In this document: one piece after another, positions 18,124 through 47,766 of the stretch
How positions within the stretch are numbered: the stretch's first letter is position 1
How the letters are laid out: every line of letters begins with the position of its first letter
Assembly: GCA_026992315.1 (NCBI GenBank)
Contig: JALXAG010000151.1
Span: forward strand, 1 to 53,954
Source: Sneathiellales bacterium
GTDB lineage: Bacteria; Pseudomonadota; Alphaproteobacteria; Minwuiales; Minwuiaceae
Length of the DNA: 53,954 nucleotides
Reading direction: 5' to 3'
Notes under the pieces: generated by a model
Told to the model about the DNA's origin: nothing
Database searches by the model: none
What the model saw: only the letters and a program-made list of their open reading frames with translations
Made by a program: the position numbers and the translations under genes

Positions 18124-19932
18124 TCATGCCTTGCGCAGCATTTTCCGTTCCTGGACGATATAGAGTTCGGGCCGGTAGACATTGAGCCAGTCCAGAACCT
18201 CGTCGGCCGGGATGGGGCGGCTGATGTAATAGCCCTGTGCGATATCGCAATGAATATCGGCCAGGCGTTCCAGGGTGTCCTTGTCCTCGACTCCCTCGGC
18301 AACGACGCTGAAGCCCAGATTGTGGCCGAGATTGATCAGGGCATCGACGATGATGTGATCGTCCTTCGATTCCAGCATGGTCATGACGAAGGATTTGTCG
18401 ATCTTGATTTCGCTGACCGGCATCTTGCGGATGAAGGAAAGCGGCGTATAGCCAGTGCCGAAATCGTCGATCGAGATGCAGACCCCCATCGAATGCAGGC
18501 GGGTGATGGTCTGCCGCGCGCGGCTTTCATCGGCAATGATGGCGCTTTCGGTGATTTCGAGTATCAGGCGTTCGGCCGGGATGTCGAACTTTGCCAGTTG
18601 CAGCGCGACCGATTCGGTGAAATGCGGATCGTGCAGCACCTTGGTCGAGATATTGACGCTGACGCTGATGTCATTGCCTGCCTCCCGCCAGTGCTGGCAG
18701 TTCTTCAGGGCCAGTTTCAGCGTCTGGCGGGTCAGCTTCTTGATCAGGCCGCTGTCCTCGGCGACCGGAATGAAGACATCCGGCGGGATGATTCCCTTTT
18801 CAGGATGTTTCCAGCGGGCGAGCGCCTCGAAACCGGCGACGGCACCGCTGCCGGTGTCGATCTTCGGTTGGTAATAGAGGGTGATCTGGTCCTCGTCGAG
18901 GGCGCGGTCGAGATCATGGCGCAGGGAAAGGCTGTTGCGGGCCGTATCGTCGATTTCGTCTTCTTCCGCATAGATGACGAAATCTGATGCGTTGGCCTTG
19001 GCCTTGCGCATGGCATTTTCGGCGCGGCGGACCAGCATGTCGGCATTGAGACCGTGATCGGGATAGAGGCTGACGCCGATGCAGCCGCCAAGGGCAATTG
19101 TGTGTCCATCGTATTCGATCGGTTTTTTGAGCTGTTCGGCCAGGCGGCTTGCCGTGATGACCGCGCCGCTGAGAGAGGCCTTGTTCAGCAGCAGCGCCGC
19201 AAATTCATCGTCGCCGAGGCGGGCGATCAGGTCGCTGTCGCGCAGGGTTTCGCGCAGGCTGATGGCGGCGTTGCGCAGAATAACGTCACCGGCTGCATAG
19301 CCGAGGTTTTTGTTGACCGAGTTCAGACCGTTGAGGTCGATGATGAGCACGGCGATATCATTGCCGCTGCGTTGTGCCTGACGGATGGCATGTTCCAGGC
19401 TTTCAAAGAAAAAGGCGCGGTTCGGCAGCCCGGTCAGTTTGTCGTAAAGGGAGTTGCGCCGCGATTCGTCGCGTGCCTGCTGGGCGGCATGGCGGACCTT
19501 GTGATGGCGCATGCATTTCCAGACATGCAGGCCTATTCCGTCGCGTTCCAGAGTTTCCAGCGGCAGGCAATCCGAAGCACCGGCCGAGATCAGGCTGGCG
19601 GCATCGCTGTCGGAAAAATCGCGCAGAACCACGATCAGCGGCCCCTGAATGCCGGTGGGCAGCAACGGGATGGCCGAGTTCCTGTCCCTGGCAAAGAACA
19701 GGGTGCAGTCGAACAAGGCCTGCATCGGGCCGTCTTTCATGCCGCTCAGCGTATGGGCGGTGGTGATGCTGATTTCCCCGTTATGGATGGGCAGCACGGC
19801 CGAGGCGGCTGTCGCCTCCTTGAGCAGATTGTCAGGATCGACGCACAGGATGGAGAGGGAAAGGCCGGTTTCCCCTTGTTCTTCTGTCTGCGATTGCCGT
19901 ATGGCGGTATCGGTTTTGATGTTTGCTTTCAT
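18124..19932 (-). CDS. Bifunctional GGDEF/EAL protein with degenerate GGDEF (GDDEF) and intact-looking EAL
   Basis: 'LTGLPNRAFFFESLEHAIRQ...ARLGDDEFAALL', 'GFEALARWKHPEKG', 'LEITES', 'IDDFGTGYTPLSFI', 'VVAEGVED...QGYYISRP'. ORF extends to 19995. Confidence 0.93.
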   Translation of the reverse strand: MKANIKTDTAIRQSQTEEQGETGLSLSILCVDPDNLLKEATAASAVLPIHNGEISITTAHTLSGMKDGPMQALFDCTLFFARDRNSAIPLLPTGIQGPLIVVLRDFSDSDAASLISAGASDCLPLETLERDGIGLHVWKCMRHHKVRHAAQQARDESRRNSLYDKLTGLPNRAFFFESLEHAIRQAQRSGNDIAVLIIDLNGLNSVNKNLGYAAGDVILRNAAISLRETLRDSDLIARLGDDEFAALLLNKASLSGAVITASRLAEQLKKPIEYDGHTIALGGCIGVSLYPDHGLNADMLVRRAENAMRKAKANASDFVIYAEEDEIDDTARNSLSLRHDLDRALDEDQITLYYQPKIDTGSGAVAGFEALARWKHPEKGIIPPDVFIPVAEDSGLIKKLTRQTLKLALKNCQHWREAGNDISVSVNISTKVLHDPHFTESVALQLAKFDIPAERLILEITESAIIADESRARQTITRLHSMGVCISIDDFGTGYTPLSFIRKMPVSEIKIDKSFVMTMLESKDDHIIVDALINLGHNLGFSVVAEGVEDKDTLERLADIHCDIAQGYYISRPIPADEVLDWLNVYRPELYIVQERKMLRKA

Positions 19933-20079
19933 CCGGCTCGCTTCAGAACGGTGATGGCCATTTCTATACGCAGGTGCTGTCGGGAAGCTTGACAAGCCGA
20001 TCCTGCCGTTACGGGAGGAGTGTAGGCGGAGTGCGTAAAGAAGCTCTTAACCGCAAGGGGCAAAGCCGCTTTTTTCTAT

Positions 20080-22317
20080 TCATTTTGTGGTAGCGCGGAA
20101 GACGCCGTCCCAGTCCGCCGGCGGCGGTGCCGCCGTAAAATGATCCAGGCGTTGGTTGTACAGATCCCAGAGAATCTGCAGATCGGGGGCCTGGGTGCGG
20201 CATTCTTCCAGAAGATCGCGGGCCCGCCGCCAGTTCTGCGAGCGATAGGCAGCAAGCATCTTCTGCATGCTTTCGCGCAAACGCTGGTAAGCAGGAGTGG
20301 AGGCGATTTCCTCTCCGCCGAGCAGGGTATAGATGCGCACGGCCTCGCTCTTTCCCTTCACGGCGATCAGATCGAGTTCCAGCGTTGCGTATTCATCCAG
20401 ATGCACGGCGGTGCCTTCGCCAAGAACCACGGTAACGCCATAGGTCTTGGACTGTCCTTCCAGCCGGGAGGCCAGGTTGACGGCATCGCCGAGCACGGAA
20501 TAATCGAAGCGTTGACGCGATCCCATATTGCCGACGACGCATTCACCGGTATTGATGCCGATACCGATATTGATCGGCAGGAAGGGACGGCCTTCGGCCT
20601 CGGCCTCGCGTCTGAGCGCGGCGTTCAGTTCGTTCAGTTCGCTCTGCATCAGCATGGCGGCGCGGGCAGCGTTCAGGTAGTGCTCCGGGTCGTCGAGCGG
20701 GGCGTTCCAGAAGGCCATGATGCAATCGCCCATATATTTGTCGATCGTGCCCTTGTTGGCCATGATGATGTCGGTCATGGGGGTAAGGAAACGGTTGATC
20801 AATACGGTCAGGCCCTGTGGATCGTCCTTGTATTGTTCCGATATCGGGGTGAAACCGCGGATATCGCAGAACAGGAAGGTCATTTCCCGCGTTTCCCCGC
20901 CCAGCGTCAGCTTGTCCGGATTGTCGGCCAGTTGTTCCACCAATGCCGGGGACAGATACTGGCTGAAGGCGCTGCGCACCTGTTTGCGCTCCGATTCGGT
21001 CTGAACGTAGTTGATCAGGGAACCGGCAAGGTAGATGGCGAAAACGGCACTAGACGGGCCGACGGGATCGAAAAGGAAACGCAATTCGCTATAGGCCAGC
21101 CAGGAGGCGGTAACGGCGATGGCAATGGCGGTGGCGGCGATCATGGCGCAGGCCAGCGCGCCGAGGCGGCGGATCAGCAGAATGACGATTACACCGATCA
21201 CGATCAGAAACAGCCGTTCCACCGCAGGGGCCCAGTCGGGGCGCTGCAGATAACTGCCGAGCAGGATCTGTTCGAGAATATTGGCGTGAACCTCCACCCC
21301 CGGCGTGAAGGGATTCAGCGGCGTGGCGCGCAGATCCTTCAATCCCTCGGCGCTGGTGCCGACCAGCAGAATGCGGCCTTCCAGTTCTTCCGGCGTGACA
21401 TTGCCGGTAATGACCTTCCAGGCCGGTATGACCCGCTTCGGCGTCGAAGGGGCGTAATGCAGCCAGAAACGTGTGTAGGGATCGACGGGGATTTCGAAAC
21501 GGCCGATCTTGACATGGTTGAAGCCGGTTTCGGCACCGAAGCTTTTTTCATCATAAGCGCCCGCGGCCTTGAGGATGTAGGTGCTGGCGCCCTGGGCGAC
21601 GCGCAGGGTTTCCGCGGCGAGGGAGGGAAAGATTTCCTTGCCGGAACGGAAGAACATCGGCGCGCGGCGGATGACGTTATCGACCTCGTCCTTGGTGTCC
21701 AGGTTGAAGCTGCCCAGCCCGGCGGCGGCCTCCTCGATTTCCGGAATGTTGCGGATGGCGCCTTTGTAATTGGTCAGAAAGCCGAGCGGATCCTGCCCGG
21801 CCCCGCCGGTGATGGCAAAGCCCCATTTCGGTTTCGGCAGATTGCCTTCGAGATCATTGGTCATGGCCATGCCGACGACCACATTGGTCTGGGCCATGAT
21901 ATCGGCAAATTCCTTGTCGTGATCGGGCAGGGCGGCGATCACGTCTTCGATCTCTTTCAGAGCATCGGTCTGCGGCCAGTAGGTGGAAACCTGTTTCGGC
22001 GATGTCCGGTCCGGCGCATCGAAGACGATATCGAAGCTGACAACCCCCGCCCCCTTGGTGAAGGCATGATAGAGCAAGGCCTGAAAATAGGTGCGCGGCC
22101 AGGGCCATTGGCCCAGTTTCTCCAGGCTTTCGTTGTCGATATCGATAATACGCACGGCCGTATCCTCGTAAGGCCGCGGCGACAGGCGCTGATAGGCGTC
22201 GAAAACCTGATTCTGAAAGAATTCGACAAGACGCGGCTGCAGCACCGGCACGGCCAGAGCCACCGCCAGCATGGCGAAGGGGATAAGCAGGTAGAGCCAT
22301 TTCTGCAGCGTTCGCAT
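20080..22317 (-). CDS. CHASE2 domain-containing class III adenylate/guanylate cyclase
   Basis: Extracytoplasmic CHASE2 region, three C-terminal TMs, then 'EMTFLFCDIRGFTPISEQ', 'DKYMGDCIMAFWNAP', 'FDYSVLGDAVNLASRLEGQSK'. Confidence 0.94.
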   Translation of the reverse strand: MRTLQKWLYLLIPFAMLAVALAVPVLQPRLVEFFQNQVFDAYQRLSPRPYEDTAVRIIDIDNESLEKLGQWPWPRTYFQALLYHAFTKGAGVVSFDIVFDAPDRTSPKQVSTYWPQTDALKEIEDVIAALPDHDKEFADIMAQTNVVVGMAMTNDLEGNLPKPKWGFAITGGAGQDPLGFLTNYKGAIRNIPEIEEAAAGLGSFNLDTKDEVDNVIRRAPMFFRSGKEIFPSLAAETLRVAQGASTYILKAAGAYDEKSFGAETGFNHVKIGRFEIPVDPYTRFWLHYAPSTPKRVIPAWKVITGNVTPEELEGRILLVGTSAEGLKDLRATPLNPFTPGVEVHANILEQILLGSYLQRPDWAPAVERLFLIVIGVIVILLIRRLGALACAMIAATAIAIAVTASWLAYSELRFLFDPVGPSSAVFAIYLAGSLINYVQTESERKQVRSAFSQYLSPALVEQLADNPDKLTLGGETREMTFLFCDIRGFTPISEQYKDDPQGLTVLINRFLTPMTDIIMANKGTIDKYMGDCIMAFWNAPLDDPEHYLNAARAAMLMQSELNELNAALRREAEAEGRPFLPINIGIGINTGECVVGNMGSRQRFDYSVLGDAVNLASRLEGQSKTYGVTVVLGEGTAVHLDEYATLELDLIAVKGKSEAVRIYTLLGGEEIASTPAYQRLRESMQKMLAAYRSQNWRRARDLLEECRTQAPDLQILWDLYNQRLDHFTAAPPPADWDGVFRATTK

Positions 22318-40889: not shown

Positions 40890-40965
40890 GCATTGAATCA
40901 GGGGTGATGGTAGCAATGCAAAGCGGCGGTCTGTATAATTGGCTGAAATGCAATATATGCATGAA
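40863..40965 (+). repeat. Direct repeat A, copy 1 (M20 3' end + intergenic + paralog 1 N-terminus)
   Basis: gtcgaagggcagctcggtaaagggtaagcattgaatcaggggtgatggtagcaatg...caatatatgcatgaa; about 10 mismatches and two 1-nt indels versus 41531..41635. Confidence 0.92.
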
Positions 40966-41557
40966 GCATTACAATAAAATATATATATTTTATATGCTTG
41001 TATGGGCATCATATACTTTATTTATAGTTAGTTTTGTATTATCCTATGATGAGAGCCAAAAATTGATGATTTATAAATATTTCCAATTATTCGATATGAA
41101 ATTTATTGAAGATTTTATTGCAAGTTTTTCATATTTCAATGATCCTTTTCGTGTGGCGGGGTTAACGGTAATAATTTTTCCTATTGTTTTGCTTAATATT
41201 TTTCATATTGTTTTCATACCTGTGCTTAAAAGAAAACTTAAATTGAATTACCATAGGGGCATTGGTTATCTTTGTAGTATTTATGGTAAATATTTGTGTC
41301 ACGTGGTATCATATATATCGGTATTTTTTTTAGTATTATCTTTTATATATGTTTTTCGTTTGGCAGTATTGTACGATACATACAGTGACGATAAGTTTTA
41401 TAGCTTATCGGCTATGTTGTTTATGGGTGGTGCTTTTCTTTCCAATGTCCCATGTCTTGTCGTGGTGCTGAAATGGGATATCAAAACATTCCGGCACAGG
41501 TTGCGGCTTTTGCGGTACAGACGTCGCTTCGTCGAAGGGCGGCTCGGTAAAGGGTGA
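40907..41557 (+). CDS. Small AT-rich multi-TM membrane protein, paralog 1 (unknown family)
   Basis: About four hydrophobic segments, 'LYNWLKCNICMK' N-terminus, 'LKWDIKTFRHRLRLLRYRRR' basic tail; in-frame tail FVEGRLGKG. Paralogous to 41577..42206. Start could be GTG 40904 or ATG 40916. Confidence 0.75.
   Translation: MVAMQSGGLYNWLKCNICMKHYNKIYIFYMLVWASYTLFIVSFVLSYDESQKLMIYKYFQLFDMKFIEDFIASFSYFNDPFRVAGLTVIIFPIVLLNIFHIVFIPVLKRKLKLNYHRGIGYLCSIYGKYLCHVVSYISVFFLVLSFIYVFRLAVLYDTYSDDKFYSLSAMLFMGGAFLSNVPCLVVVLKWDIKTFRHRLRLLRYRRRFVEGRLGKG
41468..41527 (+). repeat. Direct repeat B, copy 1 (paralog 3' coding end)
   Basis: 60 bp, 59/60 identical to 42135..42194. Confidence 0.92.
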
Positions 41558-41635
41558 GCGTTGAATTCAGGGGTGTATGGTAACAATGCATAGAGGCACT
41601 CTGTATGATTGGCTAAAATGCAATATATGCATGAA
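41531..41635 (+). repeat. Direct repeat A, copy 2
   Basis: gtcgaagggcggctcggtaaagggtgagcgttgaattcaggggtgtatggtaacaatg...caatatatgcatgaa. Confidence 0.92.
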
Positions 41636-42206
41636 ATATAACGGAATATTATATTTGTTGTTTAGATTTATTTTTGTTCCATATGCTTTATTTATGTTAT
41701 ATTTAGTTGTATTTTATAATCAACCAACGGAAATGGTTTATATATACTACCAATTATTTGATATAAAATCTGTTGAGGAATTTATTGCAAGTTTTTCGTA
41801 CTTCAGAAATCCCCTGCGTGTGGCAGAGTTGACGGTTGTAATTCTCCCCATTTTATTTTTCAACATTATTAGCTTGTTATTTGTTCTGTTGTTTAAGAGA
41901 AAGTATAAAAAAAGGTATTATGACATGCTGTCAAAGAGATATAAAATAAGAGGAATGCGTTATGCGCATGAAACATTTTTTATAGGTGCGATTGTCATTT
42001 TTGGATCCCTTGTTTTCTTTTTGTACTTTTTGTTGAATTATAGTTCGTATGATAATTCTGATTATACTAATATCTCGATGTATTTGCTTTTAATGGGGTT
42101 TTTCTTTTCGAATATCCCGTTTTTTGTCGTAACGCTGAAATGGGATATCAAAACATTTCGGCACAGGTTGCGGCTTTTGCGGTACAGACGTCGCCGTTCG
42201 GTATGA
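41577..42206 (+). CDS. Small AT-rich multi-TM membrane protein, paralog 2 (unknown family)
   Basis: Same architecture as 40907..41557 with 'LYDWLKCNICMK', 'EEFIASFSYFRNPLRVAELTV', 'LKWDIKTFRHRLRLLRYRRR', ending RRSV. Confidence 0.75.
   Translation: MVTMHRGTLYDWLKCNICMKYNGILYLLFRFIFVPYALFMLYLVVFYNQPTEMVYIYYQLFDIKSVEEFIASFSYFRNPLRVAELTVVILPILFFNIISLLFVLLFKRKYKKRYYDMLSKRYKIRGMRYAHETFFIGAIVIFGSLVFFLYFLLNYSSYDNSDYTNISMYLLLMGFFFSNIPFFVVTLKWDIKTFRHRLRLLRYRRRRSV
42135..42194 (+). repeat. Direct repeat B, copy 2
   Basis: ctgaaatgggatatcaaaacatttcggcacaggttgcggcttttgcggtacagacgtcgc. Confidence 0.92.
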
Positions 42207-43334: not shown

Positions 43335-43633
43335 GAAAAAAATGAATGAATTTCTCATTGTCCCGTGGCAGCCAGTGCATTATTTACATTTTTGAAAACG
43401 GTATATTCACGATTACCAGTTATATAGTGTTAAATTAATGGCGCCGGCAGGTTCCGCCGTTTGGGACTATTGTCCGCCGCACTTGTGCCCAAGGATGGCC
43501 GGGTGTATTCGGTGGATGCCGGCGGCAGACGATTTGACCTCGGTCATGGTGCCGGCAGTGGGTATATGGTTTTCGCTGTTCGTGTTTTTCGCCGCCATGG
43601 CAATCCATGGCGCTATGCAAGGCAGGTTCGCTC

Positions 43634-45505
43634 ATGACAGATCTTCAGGTCGCCACGGCCGGCAATACCGCTTCTTCCCGGCGGAAACTGGATTCCGTGG
43701 TCGTACGTTTCGCCGGCGATTCAGGCGACGGTATCCAGGTAACGGGCGGGCAGTTCACGCTTGCCACGGCGCTGGCGGGCAATGATCTGGCCACCTTCCC
43801 CGATTACCCGGCGGAAATCCGCGCCCCCGTCGGCACGACCTTCGGCGTTTCGGCATTTCAGATTCATTTCGGCGATCGCAGTGTCAAGACCGCAGGCGAT
43901 GCGCCCGACACGCTGATCGCCTTCAACCCGGCGGCGCTGAAGGTCAATCTGCCGCGCCTGCCCAAGGGGGGCTTGCTGATCGTCGATGAAGGCAGCTTCA
44001 ACGAACGTAATTTCAAGAAGGCCGAAATTACCGCCAATCCGCTGGAGGACGGATCCCTCGACGATTACAATTTGATCCGCATCGATATCACCAAACGCAC
44101 GCTGGAAGCGGTAAAGCCATACGGTTTGTCGCAGAAGGAAGGGGTGCGCTGCAAGAATTTCTGGGCTCTGGGGCTGGTCTACTGGCTGTATGACCGCGAT
44201 CCCGCCCCGACCGAGGAATGGCTGAAGGCCAAGTTCAGGAACAACCCCAAGATCGCCGAGGCGAACATTGCCGCCATGCATGCCGGTCATGCCTATGGCG
44301 AAACGATGGAGCTGGATGGTTTCGGTGCCTATACGGTGCCCCCGGCCCCCATTGCGCCCGGCCAGTATCGCACGGTCACCGGGGCGGAGGCCATGGCCTG
44401 GGGGCTGGTGGTCGCCGCCGGGCTTGCGGATAAGGAGATGATGTTCGCCTCCTACCCCATCACGCCCGCTTCGGTCATCCTGCATCATCTGGCCCGCCTG
44501 AGCGATTATCGCGTCACCACCTTTCAGGCGGAGGATGAGATCGCGGCCGTCTGCGCGGCCATCGGCGCGTCATATGCCGGTTCCATCGGCGTTACCTCCA
44601 GCTCCGGCCCCGGCATCGCCCTGAAGGGGGAGGCACTGGGTCTGGCCGTTGCCGTCGAACTGCCTTTGGTGGTGGTCAATTCCCAGCGGGCGGGGCCATC
44701 CACCGGCATGCCGACCAAAACGGAACAGGCCGATCTTTTCCAGGCTGTCTTCGGGCGCAACGGCGATGCGCCGATGGCGGTGCTGGCCGTCCGTTCGCCG
44801 GGAGATGCCTTCGATGTGGCGGTGGAGGCGACACGCATTGCCCTGACCTATATGACGCCGGTGATGATCTTGACCGACGGCTATATCAACAATGCCGCCG
44901 AACCATGGAAGATTCCCGATGTCAGGAACATGGTGGCCATCGATGCGCCGTATCACACACAGGCGGAAGGTTTTCACCCCTTTGCCCGCGACCCGGAAAC
45001 CCTGGCCCGGCCCTGGGCCATTCCCGGCACGCCTGGGCTGGCGCACCGCATCGGGGGGATCGAGCGCGATGCGCTGACCGGCAATATCTCCTATGATCCG
45101 GCCAACCATCAGAAGATGACGGATCTGCGCGCCGCCAAGATCCGCGGCATCGCCAACAGCTACGGGCCGCTGGAAATGGCGGCCGGAAAACCCGGGGCGG
45201 CGCTGACGGTGGTTGGATGGGGCTCGACCTATGGCGCCGTCAACGAGGCCGTACAGGACCTGATCGGCGAGGGGGCCGATATCGCCCATGTGCATCTGCG
45301 CCATATCTGGCCGCTGCATCCCGATCTCGGCGATGTCCTGCGCCGTGCCGGCCGGGTCGTGGTGCCGGAAATGAACAATGGTCAGCTGTTGACCCTGCTA
45401 CGTTCCGAATATCTGATCGATGCCCGCCCCCTGGACCAGGTGACGGGGCAGCCGTTCAGGATCGGCAATCTGAAAGCGGCTTTCCGCCGCCATCTGGAGG
45501 CATGA
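43634..45505 (+). CDS. korA: 2-oxoacid:ferredoxin oxidoreductase subunit alpha (gamma-alpha fusion)
   Basis: 'VVRFAGDSGDGIQVTGGQFTLATALAGNDLATFPDYPAEIRAPVGTTFGVSAFQIHFG' (gamma domain), 'FASYPITPASVILHHLARL', 'SSSGPGIALKGEALGLAVAVELPLVVVNSQRAGPSTGMPTKTEQADL'. Confidence 0.95.
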   Translation: MTDLQVATAGNTASSRRKLDSVVVRFAGDSGDGIQVTGGQFTLATALAGNDLATFPDYPAEIRAPVGTTFGVSAFQIHFGDRSVKTAGDAPDTLIAFNPAALKVNLPRLPKGGLLIVDEGSFNERNFKKAEITANPLEDGSLDDYNLIRIDITKRTLEAVKPYGLSQKEGVRCKNFWALGLVYWLYDRDPAPTEEWLKAKFRNNPKIAEANIAAMHAGHAYGETMELDGFGAYTVPPAPIAPGQYRTVTGAEAMAWGLVVAAGLADKEMMFASYPITPASVILHHLARLSDYRVTTFQAEDEIAAVCAAIGASYAGSIGVTSSSGPGIALKGEALGLAVAVELPLVVVNSQRAGPSTGMPTKTEQADLFQAVFGRNGDAPMAVLAVRSPGDAFDVAVEATRIALTYMTPVMILTDGYINNAAEPWKIPDVRNMVAIDAPYHTQAEGFHPFARDPETLARPWAIPGTPGLAHRIGGIERDALTGNISYDPANHQKMTDLRAAKIRGIANSYGPLEMAAGKPGAALTVVGWGSTYGAVNEAVQDLIGEGADIAHVHLRHIWPLHPDLGDVLRRAGRVVVPEMNNGQLLTLLRSEYLIDARPLDQVTGQPFRIGNLKAAFRRHLEA

Positions 45506-45506
45506 A

Positions 45507-46547
45507 ATGAACATTGCCACTCCCGTCATGAAGCGGACAATCAAGGATTTCACCAGCGATCAGGAAGTGCGCTGGTGCCCCGGCTGCGGCGATTACGCCA
45601 TTCTCAAGGCGGTGCAGAAAACCCTGGTCGATATCGATGCCGACCCGGACCGGACGGTCTTTGTCTCGGGCATCGGCTGTGCGGCGCGTTTTCCCTATTA
45701 TGTCAGCACCTATGGTTTTCACACCATTCACGGGCGCGCGCCGGCCTTTGCCACCGGTATCAAGCTCAGCAATCCCGAACTCGATGTCTGGCTGATCACC
45801 GGCGATGGCGATGCGCTCTCCATCGGCGGCAATCATCTGGTGCATGTGCTGCGCCGCAATGTCGATATGCAGATCCTGCTGTTCAATAACGAGATCTACG
45901 GCCTGACCAAGGGGCAGTATTCCCCGACCACGCAGAAGGGGACGCGCACGCCCTCCTCGCCGCAGGGATCCGTGGATGCGCCCTTGTCCGCGACCCTGCT
46001 GGCCCTGGGGGCCGGGGCGCGTTTCGTCGCCCGCGGCATCGATCGCCTGCAGAAGGATCTGCCGGGCATTCTGGCCCGCGCCCATGCCCATAAGGGGGCA
46101 TCCTTCGTCGAGATCTACCAGAACTGCATCATCTATAACGACGGCGTGTTCGAGGGGCTGACGGAAAAGGGCATCGGCGAGGACCACCGCATCCTGCTCG
46201 AACACGGCAAGCCGATGATTTTCGGCCGCAACAGGGACAAGGGGCTGGTGCTGAACCATGACCGCCTTGCGCTGGAGGTCGTCGATCTGGGCGAAGGGGC
46301 CGATACCGGCCGCCTGCTGGTTCACGACGAAACCAACAAGACGATGGCGAGCATGCTGGCGGCCATGGAAGGCCCTGACATGCCGGTGGCCCTGGGGGTG
46401 CTGTACTGCAACCCGGATGCCAGTTACGAGCAGGAAGTAACCGCCAGGGAAAATCACGACCGTGTCGATGCCGACCGTCTGAACGCCATGCTGCGCCAGG
46501 GGCGCTGCTGGACGGTCGGCGAAGACGGCACAGGCAGCGGCGGGTAA
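45507..46547 (+). CDS. korB: 2-oxoacid:ferredoxin oxidoreductase subunit beta
   Basis: 'RWCPGCGDYAILKAVQKTL', 'GIGCAARFPYYVSTYGFHTIHGRAPAFATGIKLSNPELDVWLITGDGDALSIGGNHLVHVLRRN'. Confidence 0.96.
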   Translation: MNIATPVMKRTIKDFTSDQEVRWCPGCGDYAILKAVQKTLVDIDADPDRTVFVSGIGCAARFPYYVSTYGFHTIHGRAPAFATGIKLSNPELDVWLITGDGDALSIGGNHLVHVLRRNVDMQILLFNNEIYGLTKGQYSPTTQKGTRTPSSPQGSVDAPLSATLLALGAGARFVARGIDRLQKDLPGILARAHAHKGASFVEIYQNCIIYNDGVFEGLTEKGIGEDHRILLEHGKPMIFGRNRDKGLVLNHDRLALEVVDLGEGADTGRLLVHDETNKTMASMLAAMEGPDMPVALGVLYCNPDASYEQEVTARENHDRVDADRLNAMLRQGRCWTVGEDGTGSGG

Positions 46548-46694: not shown

Positions 46695-47246
46695 ATGGCA
46701 AATTATAACTTCGATCGTTTCACGGTCCTGGTGGTCGATGAAAATTCCTATATGCGTTCGCTGATGACCATGGCGCTGAAGGCGCTGGGCATCGGCACGG
46801 TCAAGACGGCGAAGGACGGCGGCGATGCCATCGATCTGCTGCGCCTGATGGAACAGAATCCGATGAAGGCCGGGATGCTGTCGGTCGATATCGTTTTTTC
46901 GGCCTGGGACATGTCGCCCGTCGACGGCATGATGCTGTTGCGCTGGATCCGTCGCCACAAGGAAAGTCCGGACCGCTTCATTCCCTTTGTGATGGTGACC
47001 GGCCATGCCGAACCTGATAACATCCGCGAAATGCGCGATATGGGGGTGACGGAGGTTCTGGCGATGCCGTTTTCGGTCAATGGGGTGGCCAGCCGCCTGC
47101 TGCAGGTGGTGGACCGTCCGCGCCAGTTCGTGCATACATCCGATTATTTCGGGCCCGACCGGCGCCGGCAGAACATCCCCAGCGGATTGCCGGAACGGCG
47201 GGTGCTGACCGATGACCACCCTCAGGTGGAGATTGTCTATGACTAA
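46695..47246 (+). CDS. Response regulator receiver-domain protein with degenerate active site
   Basis: 'FTVLVVDENSYMRSLMTMALKALG', 'DIVFSAWDMSPVDGMMLLRWIR', 'FVMVTGHAEPDNIREMRDMGVTEVLAMPFSVNGVASRL'. Confidence 0.88.
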   Translation: MANYNFDRFTVLVVDENSYMRSLMTMALKALGIGTVKTAKDGGDAIDLLRLMEQNPMKAGMLSVDIVFSAWDMSPVDGMMLLRWIRRHKESPDRFIPFVMVTGHAEPDNIREMRDMGVTEVLAMPFSVNGVASRLLQVVDRPRQFVHTSDYFGPDRRRQNIPSGLPERRVLTDDHPQVEIVYD

Positions 47247-47766
47247 GGCCGGTTCCGGAAAAAAGCCACCCGTTCGGGTGCGTTTCTACCGTCTGCGCAA
47301 CAAGCTGAAGGAAAAGGCCGGCGGCGGCAGCGGCGAAGGCGGCGGCACCATTTCCGCCGATGCGCTGGCGGCGGCGCAGGAGGCCTTCGATCAGGCGGCG
47401 GAGGATTATCCCGATTGGGTGAAACCTTATATCGACGAACTTTACGAACATTTCCGCCGTTGCGTCGATACGCCCGAACAGCGCCTGCAGCACTTCGCCC
47501 AGGTGCGCAGGATCGCCCATGACCTGAAAGGCCAGGGCAGCACCTTCGGCTATAACCTCATGACCTTCTTTGCCGCTTCACTGTACGATTTCGCCTTTCA
47601 GGAAGGGGAAATCTCCGACAATCATGTGGAACTGCTGAAAGCGCATATCGATTCCATGAATGTCGTCATCAAGGATCGGATCCGTGGCGATGGCGGTGAG
47701 GAAGGGCAGGCCCTGCAAAAGGGGCTGCAGGATGCCATCGAGAAATATATGAACACGGTGGAGTAG
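47239..47766 (+). CDS. HPt (histidine phosphotransfer) domain-like protein
   Basis: 'QVRRIAHDLKGQGSTFGYNLMTFFAASLYDF' resembles AHxLKGxSxxxG; start overlaps the receiver gene stop (ATGACTAA). Confidence 0.75.
   Translation: MTKAGSGKKPPVRVRFYRLRNKLKEKAGGGSGEGGGTISADALAAAQEAFDQAAEDYPDWVKPYIDELYEHFRRCVDTPEQRLQHFAQVRRIAHDLKGQGSTFGYNLMTFFAASLYDFAFQEGEISDNHVELLKAHIDSMNVVIKDRIRGDGGEEGQALQKGLQDAIEKYMNTVE

Follow-up and report, generated by a model that had tools for sequence, protein, structure and literature searches.

A pseudo-receiver and an HPt protein encoded by two overlapping genes have been identified in a Sneathiellales bacterium, in a stretch of 53,954 nucleotides (contig JALXAG010000151.1) that is referred to here as the window. 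The features of the two proteins and of their relatives suggest a two-protein module in which a phosphorylation-independent receiver subunit, probably responsive to c-di-GMP, regulates its own HPt protein. We give this reading about an even chance.

The pseudo-receiver gene (46695..47246, + strand) encodes a protein of 183 residues with a CheY-like domain at approximately residues 9-141, which matches the Response_reg family (PF00072) of Pfam with 53.4 bits against a cut-off of 30.2. The AlphaFold model (pLDDT 77) has a five-stranded receiver fold in which residue 70 ends strand 3. The closest PDB structures are those of CheY (E-value about 1e-9, TM about 0.84 on the target), and the CheY D57A mutant is among the structures matched. 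In the alignment to CheY, D57 falls on Ala70 (46902..46904, +, codon GCC) and K109 on Met124 (47064..47066, +, codon ATG), as proposed in the first-pass annotation, and Thr102 is kept. The same annotation had considered the acidic pair to be retained together with the threonine. This is correct for Asp15 and Thr102, but the pair reads D15-E16, and Glu16 (46740..46742, +, codon GAA) at the DD2 position replaces an Asp that is present in 28/28 clade relatives. The canonical set of a phosphorylatable receiver is represented by D15 and T102 only, with A70, E16 and M124 as the departures, so that the receiver deviates from the clade norm at three of five catalytic positions. On these residues the window receiver is predicted to be unable to work by canonical Asp phosphorylation. 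The Asp of the segment 'WDM' has been considered as an alternative active-site residue and rejected, as both the CheY alignment and the structure model place it at D+2, outside the active site. Since the acceptor Asp is absent from 2.0% of receivers (PMC12632262), its absence from the window receiver is not ascribed to chance; in the source genome Asp is kept in nearly all the receivers examined.

The HPt protein gene (47239..47766, +) encodes 175 residues and matches PF01627 with 27.2 bits against a cut-off of 24.6. Its ATG at 47239 lies within the receiver gene, whose stop ends at 47246, and the resulting 8-nt stop/start overlap ATGACTAA (47239..47246, +) is preceded by GGAG. The overlap noted earlier is thereby borne out, and so is the HPt-like motif with a retained histidine: His94 (codon CAT, 47518) sits in HDLKGQGSTFGY, and the HxxKG-type motif reads HDLKG. 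The protein is built of a conserved N-terminal VRFYRxxNxLxEK segment, a helical core containing His94 and a C-terminal GDGG region. Its model is a helical bundle (pLDDT 77.5) with CheA P1 within the top ten Foldseek matches, at probabilities of 0.93-1.00 and weak E-values of 0.1-0.9. Profile, motif and, less strongly, fold thus identify the downstream protein as an HPt; any other identity has been ruled out by the PF01627 profile and the fold match. It shares the helical-bundle fold and the HxxKG-type motif with its histidine with the CheA P1/HPt domains of PF01627, and differs from them in the N-terminal and C-terminal regions that are its own. A start nine codons further upstream, at 47212, is less likely, as 47239 is the start conserved in the clade. 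The same 8-nt overlap is found in 19/29 clade members, and by this arrangement receiver and HPt are translationally coupled.

When GTDB genomes were scanned with the receiver, 16 alphaproteobacterial orthologs of 50-61% identity were found, from Kordiimonas and MAGs, in addition to one unrelated receiver. Each of the 16 orthologs is followed directly by the HPt gene with the same 8-nt overlap. A profile search with the HPt family across 385 Alphaproteobacteria identified 138 genomes with a match of 1e-12 or better, and about 100 receiver-HPt pairs have been drawn from the genomes of the class. The receiver is upstream of the HPt in 84 cases, the two form natural one-frame fusions in 25, and the HPt is found without a receiver in 14, counts that take in a few duplicates and distant pairs. 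The receiver-HPt pair is an alphaproteobacterial module.

A quick tree of 98 pairs, from which the catalytic columns were removed and whose small branches are uncertain, places the window receiver in a clade of 29 members (SH-aLRT 97) beside fused Asp-type proteins. Whether the orthologs share the Ala and the Met had been left by the first-pass annotation as a point to check, and they do not. The acceptor position is Asn in 26 members and Asp in two near-identical ones (L026/L027), Ala is confined to the window, and the conserved Lys is present in 28/28 relatives. The tree suggests that the acceptor Asp was lost once in the clade, by a change from Asp to Asn; the Asp of L026/L027 is probably a reversion, since these two sequences are nested within the clade. 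The sister sequence (L005) has Asn at the acceptor position and keeps the Lys. The Ala and Met of the window, together with the change of DD2 from Asp to Glu, would accordingly represent a second step in the window lineage that followed an old loss of the Asp.

All 28 relatives, for example the Asn-type L019, L023 and L041, keep the DD2 Asp and the Lys, as if the pocket were still useful. Such retention in the Asn clade is not accounted for by a mere loss of phosphorylation. It favours a reading in which the receivers are still phosphorylated, either because Asn deamidates to Asp in the relatives or because the neighbouring Ser69 takes the phosphate. Ser56 takes phosphate in CheY D57N. The return of one lineage (L026/L027) to Asp agrees with such a reading, as does a documented Asn-to-Asp reversion in a receiver (PMC4395418). 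The window receiver, however, has an Ala, which is not open to deamidation, and has also lost the DD2 Asp and the Lys. The serine, moreover, is not invariant, being Ala in 3/28 and Thr in 1/28 relatives, and alternative Ser phosphorylation is disfavoured as a clade-wide rule. Continued phosphorylation of the receiver is considered very improbable.

The loss of three catalytic residues, and a terminal branch somewhat longer in the window than in its sister (0.42 against 0.24), could also indicate a decaying gene with no remaining function. The pattern of change speaks against it. The window receiver departs at three of the 39 conserved columns (those with conservation of 90% or more in the 28 other clade members), and the three are exactly the catalytic ones; random placement would give this once in 9139, a post hoc figure. 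The reading frame is intact, and the other 36 conserved columns, the tail and the overlap are all kept. The integrity of the receiver outside its catalytic columns argues against general decay, which we regard as highly unlikely. Among 36 conserved HPt columns the HPt protein of the window shows a single departure, which does not affect the His.

The C-terminus of the receiver, which consists of RPRQFVHTSDYFGPDRRRQNIPSGLPERR and a short remainder, contains an arginine-rich tail (47145..47201, +) that was overlooked in the first-pass annotation. The tail matches the arginine-rich region (ARR) of the Caulobacter Cle proteins, in which peptides with the motif [YF]XGP[DE][RK]R bind c-di-GMP (PMC5677366). 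Motif 1 is intact as YFGPDRRR at residues 151-158 (YFGPDRR at 151-157). Motif 2, SGLPERR at residues 163-169, is partly degenerate, with P-E-R-R kept and the [YF]xG part not. A profile of the tail (A3) has a sole significant PDB match, 6sft of CleD (E-value 2.2e-5), and the single exact copy of the ARR DNA pattern in the source genome is the one at the window receiver. Among the relatives motif 1 is present in 29/29 clade members, where YFGPDRRR is nearly invariant, in 24/25 fusions and in 40/49 other pairs. A strict motif 2 is found in 2/29, 1/25 and 14/49 respectively, and its acidic-RR core usually remains.

The Cle proteins also require a conserved Arg of helix alpha4 (R111 of CleA, R113 of CleD; PMC5677366). 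By its position Arg114 of the window receiver (47034..47036, +, codon CGC), in the predicted helix alpha4 before strand 5, may correspond to this residue, and it is invariant in the clade and the fusions. CleA D67A and CleD E70A are still functional whereas ARR mutants are not (PMC5677366). The tail suggests that c-di-GMP, in place of phosphate, is the likely input of the receiver. This c-di-GMP step is the weakest part of the module model, as motif 2 is imperfect in the clade. Because of the partial degeneration of this motif, binding of c-di-GMP may be weak or lost, and a motif kept through common descent need not retain its ligand. The tail alone does not explain the loss of the Asp, since many Asp-type relatives share both tail and HPt.

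The same receiver-HPt coupling could be read without any c-di-GMP. The receiver would then partner or cap the HPt independently of phosphorylation (as a structural subunit, brake or stabiliser), with the tail serving only as a linker or docking peptide. This agrees with the coupling and the fusions, in which the tail is placed between the receiver and HPt domains, and with a motif 2 that is usually not strict in the clade. A linker, on the other hand, does not call for the degree of conservation seen in motif 1 and the RR pair, and it is the CleD peptide that the tail profile recognises. We consider this reading unlikely, although it carries appreciable weight.

The natural fusions, and the 8-nt overlap shared by 19/29 clade members, speak for a receiver that acts on its HPt or together with it. 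They weigh against one that acts elsewhere, either as a kinase inhibitor, as Osp does on CckA and FixT on FixL, or as a binder of the flagellar switch, as CleA/CleD do, with the HPt as a separate relay gene in the same operon. Single-domain receivers that are not phosphorylated are described as kinase inhibitors in the class (PMC9430884), and Cle proteins bind FliM (PMC5677366), of which the source genome encodes one. At the locus itself no recognised kinase or flagellar protein gene is found, and action away from the HPt appears improbable. The first-pass annotation had suggested a phosphorylation-independent docking partner or a decoy. The role of partner fits, because the Asp was lost early, in the clade as a whole, and fusions to the HPt occur among related receivers; the decoy has no specific support.

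The natural fusions fall among the Asp-type relatives. A rule of reciprocal loss, by which a module gives up either the receiver Asp or the HPt His and never both, has also been considered. The HPt His is kept in 27/28 Asp-less modules and lost in 13/70 Asp modules, but the independent events on the tree are too few to support such a rule. In 12 Asp-type receiver-HPt modules (L054, L057, L067, L078, L081, L083, L084, L093, L094, L097, L114 and L119) the HPt His is replaced by Leu, Asn, Arg or Asp. These represent the inverse degeneration, with the receiver alive and the HPt dead.

In the preferred model, that of a c-di-GMP-responsive receiver subunit acting on its HPt, the receiver would dock on its partner HPt by way of the customary receiver-HPt interface. 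Its state would be set, as in CleA/CleD, by c-di-GMP captured by the tail and the alpha4 Arg114 and not by phosphate, and this state would mask or expose the HPt His. In this manner c-di-GMP could gate the flow of phosphate from hybrid kinases devoid of an HPt of their own to downstream regulators. The source genome encodes three PF01627 HPts, two of which lie in long kinase-like frames, the window HPt alone being free-standing. It also encodes a ChpT-like protein and at least five hybrid kinases whose frames, judged from coordinates, include a receiver and lack a PF01627 HPt. The free-standing HPt could serve some of these kinases. Nine GGDEF domains are encoded in the genome, one of them within the window.

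The closest functional analogues are CleA/CleD, in which c-di-GMP controls a receiver without phosphorylation, and ShkA. The Cle proteins are likewise alphaproteobacterial CheY-like single receivers with a C-terminal ARR and a conserved alpha4 Arg. Their activity is independent of the phospho-acceptor, Glu70 of CleD being dispensable (PMC5677366). They differ in acting on the flagellar switch, with no HPt partner mentioned (PMC5677366), whereas receivers of the window type are tied to an HPt by coupling or fusion, and their motif 2 is usually imperfect. In the ShkA-ShpA-TacA system of Caulobacter a pseudo-receiver binds c-di-GMP and controls an HPt-containing phosphorelay through the HPt ShpA (PMC7010744). 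The pseudo-receiver of ShkA is part of a hybrid kinase and binds c-di-GMP by its beta5-alpha5 surface (PMC7010744), whereas that of the window is a separate protein tied to an HPt and equipped with an ARR tail.

Osp of Rhodobacter and FixT are also small alphaproteobacterial receivers, reported to be unphosphorylated, that regulate a two-component pathway. They bind the kinase, and neither HPt coupling nor an ARR tail is described in the available part of the source (PMC9430884). The aspartate-less or pseudo-receivers in general share the receiver fold without the acceptor Asp, Asn being the second most common replacement (PMC4395418, PMC12632262). RitR, the example treated there in most detail, differs in being a response regulator and not a stand-alone receiver tied to an HPt gene (PMC4395418, PMC12632262). 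A 2025 review considers on/off switching of pseudo-receivers a major unknown (PMC12632262). The present clade appears to combine a single acceptor loss, a second-step loss around the active site, the retention of a putative ligand-binding tail and a likely partner named by the genome.

The association of the ARR with the HPt family extends across genomes. Among the 385 genomes the ARR DNA pattern occurs in 106/138 of those with the HPt family and in 16/247 of those without it (odds ratio 48), raw genome counts whose figure is inflated by shared ancestry. Among the sites listed, 58/150 ARR sites are located at most 1.5 kb from a listed HPt match, where about 0.15 would be expected. The genome-level association agrees with the adjacency of ARR and HPt in many lineages and with the fusions. 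We propose, tentatively and as less likely than not, that Alphaproteobacteria widely possess a module through which c-di-GMP controls a phosphorelay at the level of the HPt rather than of the kinase, by way of a Cle-type c-di-GMP receiver bound to that HPt. In the receiver of one clade phosphorylation would have been abandoned entirely, leaving a pure c-di-GMP-responsive gate. If true, this would be a further node at which c-di-GMP and phosphorelays meet. It is tied to an HPt family common in Alphaproteobacteria whose receivers mostly carry the Cle motif, and it does not figure in the Cle paper, in which 302 ARR proteins are reported, 91% of them single receivers, with no HPt mentioned (PMC5677366). 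In the literature searched no paper links Cle proteins with an HPt partner and no text matches the letters of the motif, and the pairing appears to be undescribed there.

Just upstream of the receiver is korA-korB (43607..46547, +), encoding a 2-oxoacid:acceptor oxidoreductase, a neighbour conserved in part of the clade, including several members from other families. Other nearby genes encode metallo-beta-lactamase-fold, M20 hydrolase-like, ferredoxin reductase-like, MoxR and CoxE proteins. The recurrent neighbours, namely korAB, the ferredoxin reductase-like gene, MoxR/CoxE and a histidine phosphatase, have been considered as a guide to function and set aside, as they name no pathway or output. 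Scans for promoters and terminators gave nothing above chance.

In one family, represented by three genomes, the pseudo-receiver is preceded by genes for a MarR regulator and a histidine phosphatase-family protein, the second of these lying two genes upstream (L128 11265-11861; L129 8137-8685; L130 7875-8585). Phosphatases of the histidine phosphatase superfamily (SixA) can act on HPt proteins. In the Kordiimonas-like loci the pseudo-receiver gene is immediately preceded by one for a second small HPt protein (L024 3595-3957; L025 3522-3884; L028 3492-3875; L030 3481-3909), beyond which a divergent membrane and coiled-coil protein of 850-1050 residues is encoded.

Genes of c-di-GMP and cyclic-nucleotide signalling share the contig with the receiver-HPt pair. 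A GGDEF-EAL protein gene and a CHASE2-nucleotide cyclase gene adjoin each other at 18124-19995 (-) and 20080-22317 (-). Two tandem paralogous membrane-like proteins, 41% identical and with no match in Pfam, are encoded at 40904-41557 and 41577-42206. This stretch (40904-42206) has a GC content of 30-34% in surroundings of about 60-65% and looks like a recent acquisition with duplication.
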